Origin: Actinomycetota bacterium
GTDB taxonomy: Bacteria > Actinomycetota > Actinomycetes > Nanopelagicales > Nanopelagicaceae
Reading direction: 5' to 3'
Assembly: GCA_016870835.1 (NCBI GenBank)
Contig: VGAG01000008.1
Span: 1 to 37,358, forward strand
DNA: 37,358 nt
The notes under the pieces were generated by a model. It worked only from the letters and a program-made list of their open reading frames with translations. It did no database searches and was not told where the DNA came from. Below, piece after piece: positions 10,313 to 33,250 of this stretch. The position numbers and the translations under genes are program-made. Numbering within the stretch: position 1 is the first letter of the stretch; each line of letters starts with the position of its first letter.

Positions 10313-10992
10313 GCTGACACCTCAACTAACTCTGATTCGCGACCTACTCCTTTTGCAGATGAACCCTTTGCAGGTCCAGCAACAAATTCAGTAATCGCTT
10401 TCTTGGAGAAGACGACATCATCAGAGACAACGACGTCATAAGCATTTAGTTGATCTTGGCGAATCAAGTGCAGTTCGCTCTCATTACGAAGTGAGCGCCA
10501 TGAAGCCTCTTCGCCATGCGCAAGAACAACAAGCAGACGAGCGCGATCTGAGAATTGGCGGACGGCAGCAATTGCGGCCTTGCTATCAATCTCAGCGGTA
10601 ACTTCAGTAACGATATGGATGCGCTCATTGCGCGCACGATCAGAGAGAACTCCGCGAAGAGCTGCCTTGATCATCTTCTTAGGTGTGCGCTCGTCGTACT
10701 TACGAGGTACTGGACCTTGAGCAACGCCACCATGGCGCTGGTTTGGTGAACGAGTTGAACCCTGACGGGCGCGACCAGTTCCCTTCTGTTTGAAAGGTTT
10801 CTTTCCACCACCGCTTACTTCACCGCGGTTCTTCGCCTTATGTGTTCCTTGGCGAGCTGCATTTAATTGTGCAGTTACGACTTGGTGAATTAGTGGGACA
10901 TTTACTTGGACATCAAAGATTTCTTCTGGGAGTTCAAAGGTTCCCGCCTTTGCTCCTTTTGCATCTTTGATTTCAATGGTTAGCGCCATCAT
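10309..10992 (-). CDS. rplD: 50S ribosomal protein L4
   Basis: This tunnel-wall protein has 227 residues. The extended loop is visible ([33 protein letters not shown] region, near residues 55-90). Two ATG codons in tandem (10992 and 10989) could start translation, differing by one Met. Both lie in the rplC stop overlap. L4 represses the S10 operon in E. coli; no equivalent leader was identified here. Confidence 0.96.
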
Positions 10993-30003: not shown

Positions 30004-30390
30004 CTACTTAACGGAAACCTTCGCGCCAGCTGCTTCAAGAGCTGCCTTTGCCTTATCCGCGGTCGCCTTATCTGCCTTCTCAAGCACAGTTGCTGGAGCC
30101 GCATCGACAAGGTCCTTTGCCTCCTTGAGGCCAAGGCTTGAGTTGAGCGCACGTACTTCCTTAATAACGGCGATCTTCTGTGAGCCTGCATCCTCAATGA
30201 TGATGGTGAATTCATCTTGGGCAGCAGCAGCTTCGCCACCACCGGCAGCTCCACCTGCTGCAGCGACTGCTACTGGAGCAGCTGCGGTTACATCAAATGC
30301 CTCTTCGAAAGCCTTTACGAAATCTGAAAGCTCAACGAGGGACATCTCCTTGAACTGACCTAGTAGGTCATCAGTACTTAGTTTTGCCAT
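30004..30390 (-). CDS. rplL: 50S ribosomal protein L7/L12
   Basis: The flexible stalk protein that recruits translation factors. The 128 residues have an N-terminal dimerisation domain, an Ala/Gly hinge near 38-52, and the C-terminal domain with [28 protein letters not shown]. It follows rplJ after 29 bases and precedes the rplL-rpoB terminator. Confidence 0.98.
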
Positions 30391-30419: not shown

Positions 30420-31061
30420 CTACGCGTTCTCTTGTGATTCTGGAGTTGCTTCAGCTTGCGCTGGTTCTGCAGAAGTTTCTTGAGCTGTTGCTTCAGCAAC
30501 TGGTGCTGCTTCGGCTACAACTTCAGGTGCTGCTTCTGCAGCGGGGGCAGCTTGGGCAGGTGCAGCGGGTGCACCAGCTTCTGCTTCTCTCTTGATACGA
30601 AGTGCATCAAATGCGCGTGCAGCTTTTGCCATCGATGCCTTCATAGCACCAGCCAGCTTGGCCAAGAGAACTTCGCGCGATTCGAGATCGGCGAGCTTCA
30701 TGATTTCAGCTGTGGTTACAGTCTTACCTTCAAAGATTCCGCCCTTGATAACAAGAAGTGGATTCTCTTTCTGGAAGTTCTTTAGGCTCTTCGCAGCGGT
30801 AATCGGATCGCCTTTTACGAAAGCGATTGCAGAAGGACCGGCGAGAAGAGACTCATCAACATTTACGCCTGCTTCTTTTGCGGCGATCTTGACGAGTGTG
30901 TTCTTCGCTACTTTGTACTTGGTTTCGGCGCCAAGTGAACGGCGTAGCTCTTTGATCGCTTGGACTGTTAGTCCGCGATACTCGGTGACAACTGTTGCAT
31001 CTGCTCCTTTGAAATCTTCAACGAGCTCTGCAACTGCTGCTGCCTTATCAGGGCGAGCCAT
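30420..31061 (-). CDS. rplJ: 50S ribosomal protein L10 with A/P/E-rich tail
   Basis: The stalk base that carries L7/L12 dimers. The core (residues 1-165) starts [31 protein letters not shown] and includes [18 protein letters not shown]. The last ~45 residues are a low-complexity Ala/Pro/Glu tail, giving 213 residues against ~165 in E. coli. It is preceded by a promoter and a long structured leader (31062-31241), consistent with L10-L12 autoregulation. Confidence 0.97.
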
Positions 31062-31111
31062 CTGGCTTCCTTTCTATTTGTTCCCCAGATTTGAAGTTGG
31101 TAATAAATGAG

Positions 31112-31161
31112 AAAAACCCCGTCGCATAGAAACGCGCGGGGTAACCGCTTGAACCTATGCG
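31112..31161 (-). promoter_or_regulatory. Terminator-like hairpin with a competing pairing in the rplJ leader
   Basis: On the coding strand a hairpin with a six-bp GC stem (arms 31116-31121 and 31137-31142) is followed by UUUUU (31116-31112) about 50 bases before rplJ. The segment 31155-31161 is a perfect seven-base complement of 31123-31129, which forms part of the hairpin loop and 3' flank. The two pairings cannot both form fully. The arrangement resembles terminator/antiterminator attenuation. Binding of L10-L12 further upstream in the leader would be the natural switch. The control is inferred. Confidence 0.5.
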
Positions 31162-31164
31162 GGC

Positions 31165-31176: not shown

Positions 31177-31241
31177 TTTATTTCGATTCAATCTGGCAAA
31201 CCATTTCGAATCGAGACCAGCAGTCTCTGGTGAGATGGCAG

Positions 31242-31271
31242 ATATTAGGTGGGAGGTTGGCTCTCAGTCAA
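31242..31271 (-). promoter_or_regulatory. Promoter for rplJL-rpoBC
   Basis: A TTGACT -35 (31271-31266) and a TAATAT -10 (31247-31242) are separated by 18 bases on the minus strand, the best consensus match in the window. Transcription would start near 31235, giving a leader of about 175 bases before rplJ. Confidence 0.7.
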
Positions 31272-31358: not shown

Positions 31359-31700
31359 ATGTCATGGGAAATCCTCATTCATCCAGAAGTTGAAGAGTGG
31401 CTTTCAACTCTTACAGATAAGGAGTACATGCAAGTGTCCGCCGCAATTGAAGCGCTGCGAATCAAAGGACCTCTACTTGGAAGGCCTCTGGCAGATCAAA
31501 TCAAAGGATCTCGGATACATAAATTAAAGGAATTAAGACCGTTAGGCACGAAGATCCGAATTCTCTTCTATTTCGATAAGGCTAGGCGAGCAACTCCTCT
31601 CGTTGCCGGTGACAAATCAAGTGATTGGAAGGATTGGTACCGAACAAGAATCAATTTGGCGGAACGCAGAATAGAACTTAAGGAGTCAGAAAATGGCTAA
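31359..31700 (+). CDS. HigB/RelE-like toxin (phage Gp49-type family)
   Basis: A 113-residue basic protein of the RelE/HigB fold, family of phage-derived Gp49-like proteins. Characteristic stretches are HKLKELRP near residue 54, TKIRILFYFD near 64-73, and VAGDKSSDWKDWYRTRI near 82-98. Members cut mRNA on ribosomes; activity of this one is inferred. It is the first gene, as in higBA modules, and overlaps the antitoxin gene by eight bases. Confidence 0.85.
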   Translation: MSWEILIHPEVEEWLSTLTDKEYMQVSAAIEALRIKGPLLGRPLADQIKGSRIHKLKELRPLGTKIRILFYFDKARRATPLVAGDKSSDWKDWYRTRINLAERRIELKESENG

Positions 31701-32040
31701 ATACTCGACTTGGCAAGATGTACGGAAAAAGCGCCCAGTAAACCAATCTGAACTTCGCAAATTAACCCGCGAGTATCTTTCTAAGTCTCAGAATGCAACG
31801 TTAGCGGAGATTCGCATTGCTCTAAACATTACCCAGAAGGAGTTAGCTGAAATCATTGGAATCGACCAGTCCAATGTCTCTCGAATCGAACGTGGTCCTA
31901 TGAATTCAACAGAGCTTAGAACATTAGAGGCGTACGTAAACGCGCTTGGTGGTGAATTAGAAATCCGTGCACGTATCGACAACGTCTCTCATAAACTAAT
32001 AGATTCAAGTTACGAAAAAGAGATTTCACGGCGTAAGTAG
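31693..32040 (+). CDS. HigA-like antitoxin with HTH domain
   Basis: A 115-residue XRE-type helix-turn-helix protein. The HTH covers about residues 37-70 (LAEIRIALNITQKELAEIIGID then SNVSRIERG). It probably binds both the upstream HigB-like toxin and the palindrome at 31324-31339. The start overlaps the toxin by eight bases. It ends 16 bases from the convergent secreted-protein gene, with no clear terminator between them. Confidence 0.88.
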   Translation: MAKYSTWQDVRKKRPVNQSELRKLTREYLSKSQNATLAEIRIALNITQKELAEIIGIDQSNVSRIERGPMNSTELRTLEAYVNALGGELEIRARIDNVSHKLIDSSYEKEISRRK

Positions 32041-32056: not shown

Positions 32057-33184
32057 TTACTTCTTTTTGTAGCCCTTCGGACACCTTGGATTCACGGCAG
32101 TTACTTTTTTTGTTGTCTTGCCCTTGACACAAGTGATTGTGGTTTTCTTAGCAGGCGAAATTGCAATCACTGTGGGGGTAGCTGATGAAGTAGCCGTGGC
32201 CGTTGCGCTCGGAGTTGGGGTTACAACTGGAGTGGGTGTTGGAGTTGGAGTTGGAGTGGGTGTTGGAGTTGGAGTTGGAGAAGGCGTGGGAGTAGCAACA
32301 ACAACTGGTGCTGGAGTGAAACGAAGAACTCCGCGCGACACAACAAAAGTATTTCCCGGTCTCCCTTGTGAATAGTAAATTCGCCAAACATTGGGTGAAA
32401 CTTCGTAGCCGGTTGGATCTAGCCCTTCAACACCCGGACCAGTCAGCATAAGCGGCGTAGTCCAGGTCAATCCATCTTTTGAAGTACTCACAAAAAGCAT
32501 CTGACGATTAGAGGGCGTGCAAGCGATATCCGCCATGATCATGACGTAGTCATTTGCTTTCGCACGCAAAATCTCAGTATCAACATAACCATTCTCAAAT
32601 CGCCAACCCGGCTCTTTTGTAAATGAGATGCCATCAGTTGAAATATATGAAGCAATCTTTTCAGTGCACTTTCCAAGTACTGGGCTTTCAACAATGTAGA
32701 TACGAACTCGTCCATCTGGAAGAAGCACGGCATCCGGTACGCCCCAAGCTTTAGTAGTTGATGGAACTCTCATATCTGTGGTCGTTGCAGTTTTGACTCC
32801 AATACTTGTGCAGCCGGCATCATTACAAGGTGCCGAATACACCTGTTGGTTTGCACCTTCTACTTCCTTGAAGTAAGCGCGCTTTGTCCCGTTCGGAAAA
32901 GTTACAACAGTGAAATCGTTTCCTAGACGCCCTGTTACCGAAACATTTGTGCAGACACCCTCATCATTGCAATCACTTGCAACAGTCCCTGTCGGACCAT
33001 CTGATCTCCAAACTCGATCAAGGCCATTGAACCTTTCAACATGTGGCGATACTCCACTCATGCCCATTTTCATCTGCAGGCCTGGGTCTTCTGTCATTGA
33101 CCATTCAGTTGCGCTAGCTTGTTGTAGCGGAAGAAGTGTGACTAGAAGGGTTGCTGTTGCAAGGAATACTCCGAGACGTTTCAC
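32057..33184 (-). CDS. Secreted propeller-like protein with Thr-Pro linker and basic Cys tail
   Basis: A 375-residue exported protein of unknown substrate. I chose the GTG at 33184, which gives a clean signal peptide (VKRLGVFLATATLLVTLLP, then QQASA/T). An ATG at 33229 would lie inside the rplA terminator. Repeated blocks such as STDGISFTKEPGW and STSKDGLTWTTPLML are BNR/Asp-box-like, as in beta-propeller sialidase or GH43-type folds. A run of Thr-Pro dipeptides (near residues 295-325) links to a short C-terminal module, ITCVKGKTTKKVTAVNPRCP then GYKKK. Surface binding or glycan-related function is only a guess. Confidence 0.75.
   Translation of the reverse strand: MKRLGVFLATATLLVTLLPLQQASATEWSMTEDPGLQMKMGMSGVSPHVERFNGLDRVWRSDGPTGTVASDCNDEGVCTNVSVTGRLGNDFTVVTFPNGTKRAYFKEVEGANQQVYSAPCNDAGCTSIGVKTATTTDMRVPSTTKAWGVPDAVLLPDGRVRIYIVESPVLGKCTEKIASYISTDGISFTKEPGWRFENGYVDTEILRAKANDYVMIMADIACTPSNRQMLFVSTSKDGLTWTTPLMLTGPGVEGLDPTGYEVSPNVWRIYYSQGRPGNTFVVSRGVLRFTPAPVVVATPTPSPTPTPTPTPTPTPTPTPVVTPTPSATATATSSATPTVIAISPAKKTTITCVKGKTTKKVTAVNPRCPKGYKKK
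32229..32280. repeat. Two exact 24-bp tandem units encoding Thr-Pro repeats
   Basis: Bases 32229-32252 and 32253-32276 are identical 24-mers, followed by GGAG, and each is built of hexamers of the GGAGTT/GGTGTT type. On the minus strand they encode Thr-Pro dipeptides of the linker. Such tracts can vary in length by slippage in six-base, in-frame steps. Confidence 0.85.
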
Positions 33185-33211
33185 AGGGCTAAAAATACTC
33201 GCACTTTTGGT

Positions 33212-33250
33212 AAGAAAAAACCCCGCCACGGAAAGTGACGGGGTTTTCCT
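33212..33250. terminator. Terminator downstream of rplA
   Basis: A ten-bp stem with one mismatch (arms 33220-33229 and 33235-33244) and a five-base loop. On the minus strand it ends in TTTTTTCTT, terminating the rplKA transcript. On the plus strand TTTTCCTCT follows, so it may work both ways. Confidence 0.8.

Follow-up and report, generated by a model that had tools for sequence, protein, structure and literature searches.

Gene setting and promoter of the rplJ leader

The window, i.e. the whole stretch of 37,358 nucleotides that was analysed, comes from the 1.0 Mb genome of a Nanopelagicaceae (acI) actinomycete. Its minus strand carries, in this order, nusG, rplK, rplA, a 390-aa gene, rplJ, rplL, and then two genes of rpoB and rpoC size. 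rplJ (30420..31061) encodes the 213-aa ribosomal protein L10 (Pfam PF00466, E 2.6e-25; NF000955), and rplL (30004..30390) encodes the 128-aa ribosomal protein L7/L12 (Pfam PF00542 and PF16320); the next two genes are probable rpoB (29808-26332, 1158 aa) and probable rpoC (26314-22490, 1274 aa), named from their order and length only. The 390-aa gene between rplA and rplJ (32057-33229, minus strand) gave no Pfam match and no convincing NCBIfam match. Between this gene and the rplJ promoter, a Gp49/HigB-like toxin gene and an HTH antitoxin gene are encoded on the plus strand (31359-32040), and a viral search with the toxin-like gene returned none. In relatives, the same place upstream of the leader is taken by tRNA-Gln (loci L003, L005, and L008) or tRNA-Glu (L009), so that this spot receives different genes while the leader stays.

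A putative promoter, TTGACT-18-TAATAT, was recognized by sequence at 31242..31271 on the minus strand, with the transcript expected to start near 31235. The first-pass annotation had assumed a strong promoter upstream of the leader; both boxes are present, but a promoter scan at 31271-31242 showed no excess over chance. A TTGAC/-10-like pair with equal spacing, measured as a -10 end lying 10-12 nt before the CC of the leader, occurs in 57 of the 76 distinct family leaders and at a longer distance in nine more, and the putative rplJ promoter gains support from this kept spacing. In many relatives, including Nanopelagicaceae leaders such as L021, L026, and L028, the rplJ promoters also contain inverted repeats, e.g. 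GGTAGGCC...GGCCTACC, that overlap the -35- and -10-like boxes or lie in the space separating them; these repeats may represent an operator or an upstream terminator.

A predicted terminator hairpin and its competing segment

All features of the leader described below lie on the minus strand. A predicted intrinsic terminator hairpin with a U5 tract occupies 31112..31142. Its outer stem is formed by ACCCCG (31142-31137) and CGGGGT (31121-31116), followed by T5 at 31116-31112, with 50 nt separating it from the ATG of rplJ at 31061; the ribosome-binding site of rplJ, AAAGGAAG, was read from the sequence at 31066..31073. In RNA folding, further pairs on the inner side bring the stem to 11, ACCCCGCGCGU / AUGCG-A-CGGGGU, with a stability of -18.0 kcal/mol (z -4.2), which none of 200 shuffled sequences equalled. 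In relatives, the sequence of the stem varies while its arms stay complementary.

The loop and 3' side of this hairpin include the segment CUAUGCG (31123..31129), to which CGCATAG at 31161-31155 is exactly complementary. When the loop side of the hairpin was shuffled, a match of 7 bp to the 10-nt segment arose by chance in 0.5% of trials, and a match at any place in the approximately 90 nt of leader upstream of the hairpin in 5%. The 7-bp match in the window sequence taken alone is thus only suggestive; what makes it convincing is the comparative data from relatives. Both elements had been noted in the first-pass annotation, as a GC hairpin with UUUUU 50 bases before rplJ and a seven-base perfect complementarity, and both are exact to the base. 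Its span, 31112-31161, contains these features but represents only part of an element that extends over about 31235-31112.

A third structure upstream of the terminator

The locus had been described as a two-way switch. Its terminator and antiterminator are supported, but an upstream anti-antiterminator, which is also a candidate L10 site and would render the switch responsive to L10, was missed. The 5' strand of the anti-antiterminator helix, S1 (CCAGAGACUGCUGGU, 31216..31230), contains a k-turn-like C-NNA-GAC, a motif also found in helix H42 of 23S rRNA, and covaries with the pivot strand S3 (GCCCGCAUAGG, 31154..31164). Two hairpins lie between them: P2 (31183..31214), identified by folding of the window and variable in both length and sequence among relatives, and P3 (31165..31176), a UGUC-GAAA-GACA hairpin seen by folding and alignment, with AAUAAA, which contains UAA, just before it.

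Pairing between S1 and S3 is indicated by two covarying positions. Among 112 distinct rows, the first has 77 C-G and 35 U-A pairs and is never disrupted; the second is C-G, U-A, or U-G and is likewise intact in every row. In a 34-sequence alignment, 99.6% of the cells of this helix were paired, compared with 25-46% when the partner was slid; the search pattern favoured rows able to pair, and the covariation therefore carries more weight than this percentage. S3 can pair either with S1 in the anti-antiterminator or with 31129-31123 in the antiterminator, and covariation is observed on both sides. The second partner, in turn, lies in the loop and 3' arm of the terminator hairpin, with U5 following. 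These are the shared strand and the antiterminator/terminator overlap of the attenuator type known from B. subtilis.

Conservation of the switch in relatives

Upstream regions of rplJ were gathered from relatives at the levels of genus, family, class, and phylum. Almost all Actinomycetes have the same layout: CC-NNA-GAC-YGC-N-GG, two hairpins, CC-N-RC-R-Y-AGG, and a G+C hairpin whose tail is rich in T. This last hairpin usually lies 24-134 nt before rplJ in the Actinomycetes leaders, a set in which five hairpins were mis-picked. Terminators of relatives were picked by stem and T-tail, blind to S3. The longest exact complement between S3 and the hairpin nevertheless had a mean of 5.84 bp over 112 leaders, compared with 3.66 bp for shuffled loops (maximum 3.87 in 300 runs). 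Furthermore, S3 strands of the GCAUA type have matches of 6.4 bp with their own terminators and of 3.3-3.9 bp with terminators of the other types.

Both sides of the antiterminator pairing change among relatives and their complementarity is kept, with GCAUAG facing CUAUGC in the window, GCGUAG facing UUACGC in Planktophila, and GCGCAGG facing CCUGCGC in Streptomyces. An L10 protein tree shows at least seven changes in the type of the S3 strand. In the family, strand and partner changed together in the Planktophila group, in L028, and in L022, which stand at separate places on this tree. A phylogenetic sign test of such coordinated changes had too few independent pairs. Outside the family, some matches are looser, for example in Streptomyces, where GCGUA strands face CCUGCG and are held by a G-U pair, and U-tracts are weaker (mean 3.6 T in 6, compared with 4.8). 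The antiterminator register in acI is also offset by one base from that in other Actinomycetes, so that a column-wise count on the MAFFT alignment came out too low; it was replaced by register-free complementarity with shuffles. Five rows in which the hairpin finder had taken another hairpin were set aside, and all five have UAUGCG downstream of S3 within a terminator-like hairpin. Covariation of homologous leaders had been named beforehand as a check, and it came out in favour of the switch: pairings are kept and partners change together, and the opposition of terminator and alternative pairing also holds its position before rplJ.

R1, a covariance model built on the upstream domain, scored 61.1 bits at the site in the window, and its second-best site in the genome reached 13.4 bits. 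Of 118 Actinomycetes genomes, 114 contained a site, many of the scanned genomes being outside the training set of the model, and with two exceptions there was one site per genome. For the 45 genomes with rplJ coordinates, compared by eye, the best site lay just upstream of rplJ on the same strand in all 45. In 20 less closely related genomes of the phylum, the model reached E below 0.001 in nine and below 0.1 in 12. One genome (G512, contig C1) has three equally scoring copies, at 10760, 7710225, and 7710602, near the two ends of the contig; they may reflect a duplication of the rplJ region, a terminal repeat, or faulty assembly.

The Rfam family RF00557 (L10_leader), suggested earlier as a comparison, gave no match in the window at the gathering threshold or at E up to 10, none in the loci of 10 relatives at E 5, and none in 60 relatives' genomes, but it does match B. 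subtilis, S. elongatus, T. maritima, and L. lactis. By this covariance-model test the leader is not a member of RF00557, and the comparison fails because the RF00557 model does not reach this lineage. Matches to rdlD, MS2, and other Rfam families at E>1 were regarded as chance.

Order of folding and likeness to 23S rRNA

Folding of the growing chain gives an order to these structures. A chain ending at 31122-31118 is most stable with S3 paired, and a chain that includes the whole 3' arm (31114) is most stable with the terminator formed. The antiterminator would thus have the first chance unless S3 is already held. In a fold that starts 12 nt earlier and reaches 31100, the antiterminator wins again (-52.6 kcal/mol, z -4.8), because it is extended by AAUAAAUG (about 31184-31176) and CAUUUAUU (31111-31100, after the U-tract). 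These two segments can stretch the antiterminator over the U-tract; they are partly conserved, within the genus only. Unaided folding does not choose the anti-antiterminator, whose forced structure has -42.6 kcal/mol compared with -46.7 kcal/mol, about 4 above the best fold, and it would therefore need a ligand or protein.

What could this ligand be? In relatives, C-NNA-GAC stands at the beginning of the L10/L11 region of 23S rRNA (GCAUAGAC, GCAGAGAC, GCACAGAC, and GCGAAGAC), and the leaders carry the same C-NNA-GAC (CCAGAGAC, CCAAAGAC, CCACAGAC, and CCGAAGAC). By this short likeness, the anti-antiterminator helix resembles the 23S L10 site and may mimic it. The published L10 recognition element is a kink-turn plus UAA (PMC4538822). 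UAA, as part of AAUAAA, is present in the leaders of the window and of acI, and GAAG stands there in many other Actinomycetes.

Proposed mechanism and alternatives

We consider it likely, from the comparison of sequences, that the leader at about 31235-31112 is an autogenous transcription attenuator governed by L10(L12)4, with three mutually exclusive folds. In the first, the anti-antiterminator, S1 (31230-31216) would pair with S3 (31164-31154) around P2 and P3 and mimic the L10 site of 23S rRNA; excess L10(L12)4 would bind and hold S1 and S3 together. In the second, the antiterminator, new rRNA would take up L10 and leave S3 free to pair with 31129-31123 once this segment has emerged from RNA polymerase, which would block the terminator and allow read-through into rplJ-rplL and probably rpoBC. 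In the third, with S3 held in the first fold, the hairpin 31142-31116 and its U5 would form, and transcription would stop 50 nt before rplJ. Comparison among relatives supports three predicted folds that exclude one another and are conserved before rplJ. We infer that L10(L12)4 is the ligand, that termination takes place in the cell, and that rpoBC is affected.

The upstream domain may instead bind L10 to act on translation or stability, the hairpin being a constitutive partial terminator that sets the level of read-through. The E. coli L10 leader works by translational repression (PMC10931766), and the ligand-free fold of a chain ending in the U-tract already has the terminator. However, a constitutive terminator would not need the antiterminator pairing, which is kept across family and class through changes on both sides, and the pivot strand is common to both folds; we regard this explanation as unlikely. 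An attenuator driven by NusA/NusG, by elongation speed, or by a different protein rather than by L10(L12)4 appears improbable, in view of the C-NNA-GAC that the upstream domain shares with the 23S L10 region and of the tie between this domain and the gene for L10, rplJ, in every genome compared.

A hairpin that ends transcripts of the upstream rplKA-orf operon, with no regulatory role, is very improbable, even if some read-through from the upstream genes is possible. As noted earlier, no same-strand gene lies immediately upstream: the nearest ends at 32057, with the opposite-strand toxin-antitoxin-like pair in between, and in relatives promoter-like sites are found upstream of the hairpin, all of which argues that it is not the terminator of an upstream gene. 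A conserved promoter-like element and the leader domain stand between those genes and the hairpin, and the genes just upstream vary among relatives while the leader is constant. Chance complementarity in a GC-rich stretch, to which the 5% figure for a single leader would lend some room, can practically be dismissed, as shuffled loops never came near the mean observed over 112 leaders.

Beyond the window, we hold with moderate confidence that most of the class Actinomycetes, including Streptomyces, controls rplJL, and possibly rpoBC, through an L10-driven three-fold attenuator of its own sequence type, unrecognized by Rfam, in which ribosome supply would set RNA polymerase supply via termination and not translation. 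If true, an essential control point for the proteins of the ribosomal stalk, and perhaps also for subunits of RNA polymerase, would operate by transcription attenuation throughout the class. Being invisible to the current Rfam family, the element is missed by genome annotation. In addition, the alignment offers natural strand types for swap mutants.

Comparison with known systems

A conserved antiterminator/terminator switch in Actinomycetota was not found described in the literature searched, most subscription journals lying outside it. Kuster et al. 1998 reportedly dealt with rplJL of S. griseus. The main text of a 2026 paper in Nature Microbiology about attenuation in M. tuberculosis names neither rplJ nor L10, and L10 is also absent from Naville & Gautheret 2010 and from the paper on 20 new leaders. 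According to a passage in a 2024 review (PMC10931766, its ref. 84), L10 leaders have already been reported in Actinobacteria, so that the leader is no surprise in itself; the same passage calls their mechanism possibly divergent and unexplored. The leader in the window is probably the same element as those cited there.

The leader shares with RF00557 its location before rplJ and the presumed ligand, but not a match to the covariance model. With the E. coli rplJL leader, where L10(L12)4 autoregulates through a kink-turn mimic of rRNA (PMC10931766), it would share this kind of autoregulation; unlike that leader, which acts on translation, it has a terminator and an antiterminator. The B. subtilis rplJL attenuator differs in phylum and sequence, the Rfam model is blind to the actinobacterial form, and the latter is known here from sequence comparison. 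Moreover, no ATG, GTG, or TTG occurs between 31111 and the rplJ start, and hence no leader peptide, unlike in B. subtilis, where the leader peptide between terminator and rplJ is a second, separate control outside the attenuator itself (PMC4538822). The closest likeness is nevertheless to this L10(L12)4 attenuator: an anti-antiterminator that could bind protein, an antiterminator, and an intrinsic terminator precede rplJ, neighbouring structures share strands, and in B. subtilis the same three-fold logic has been proven by experiment (Yakhnin et al. 2015, PMC4538822).
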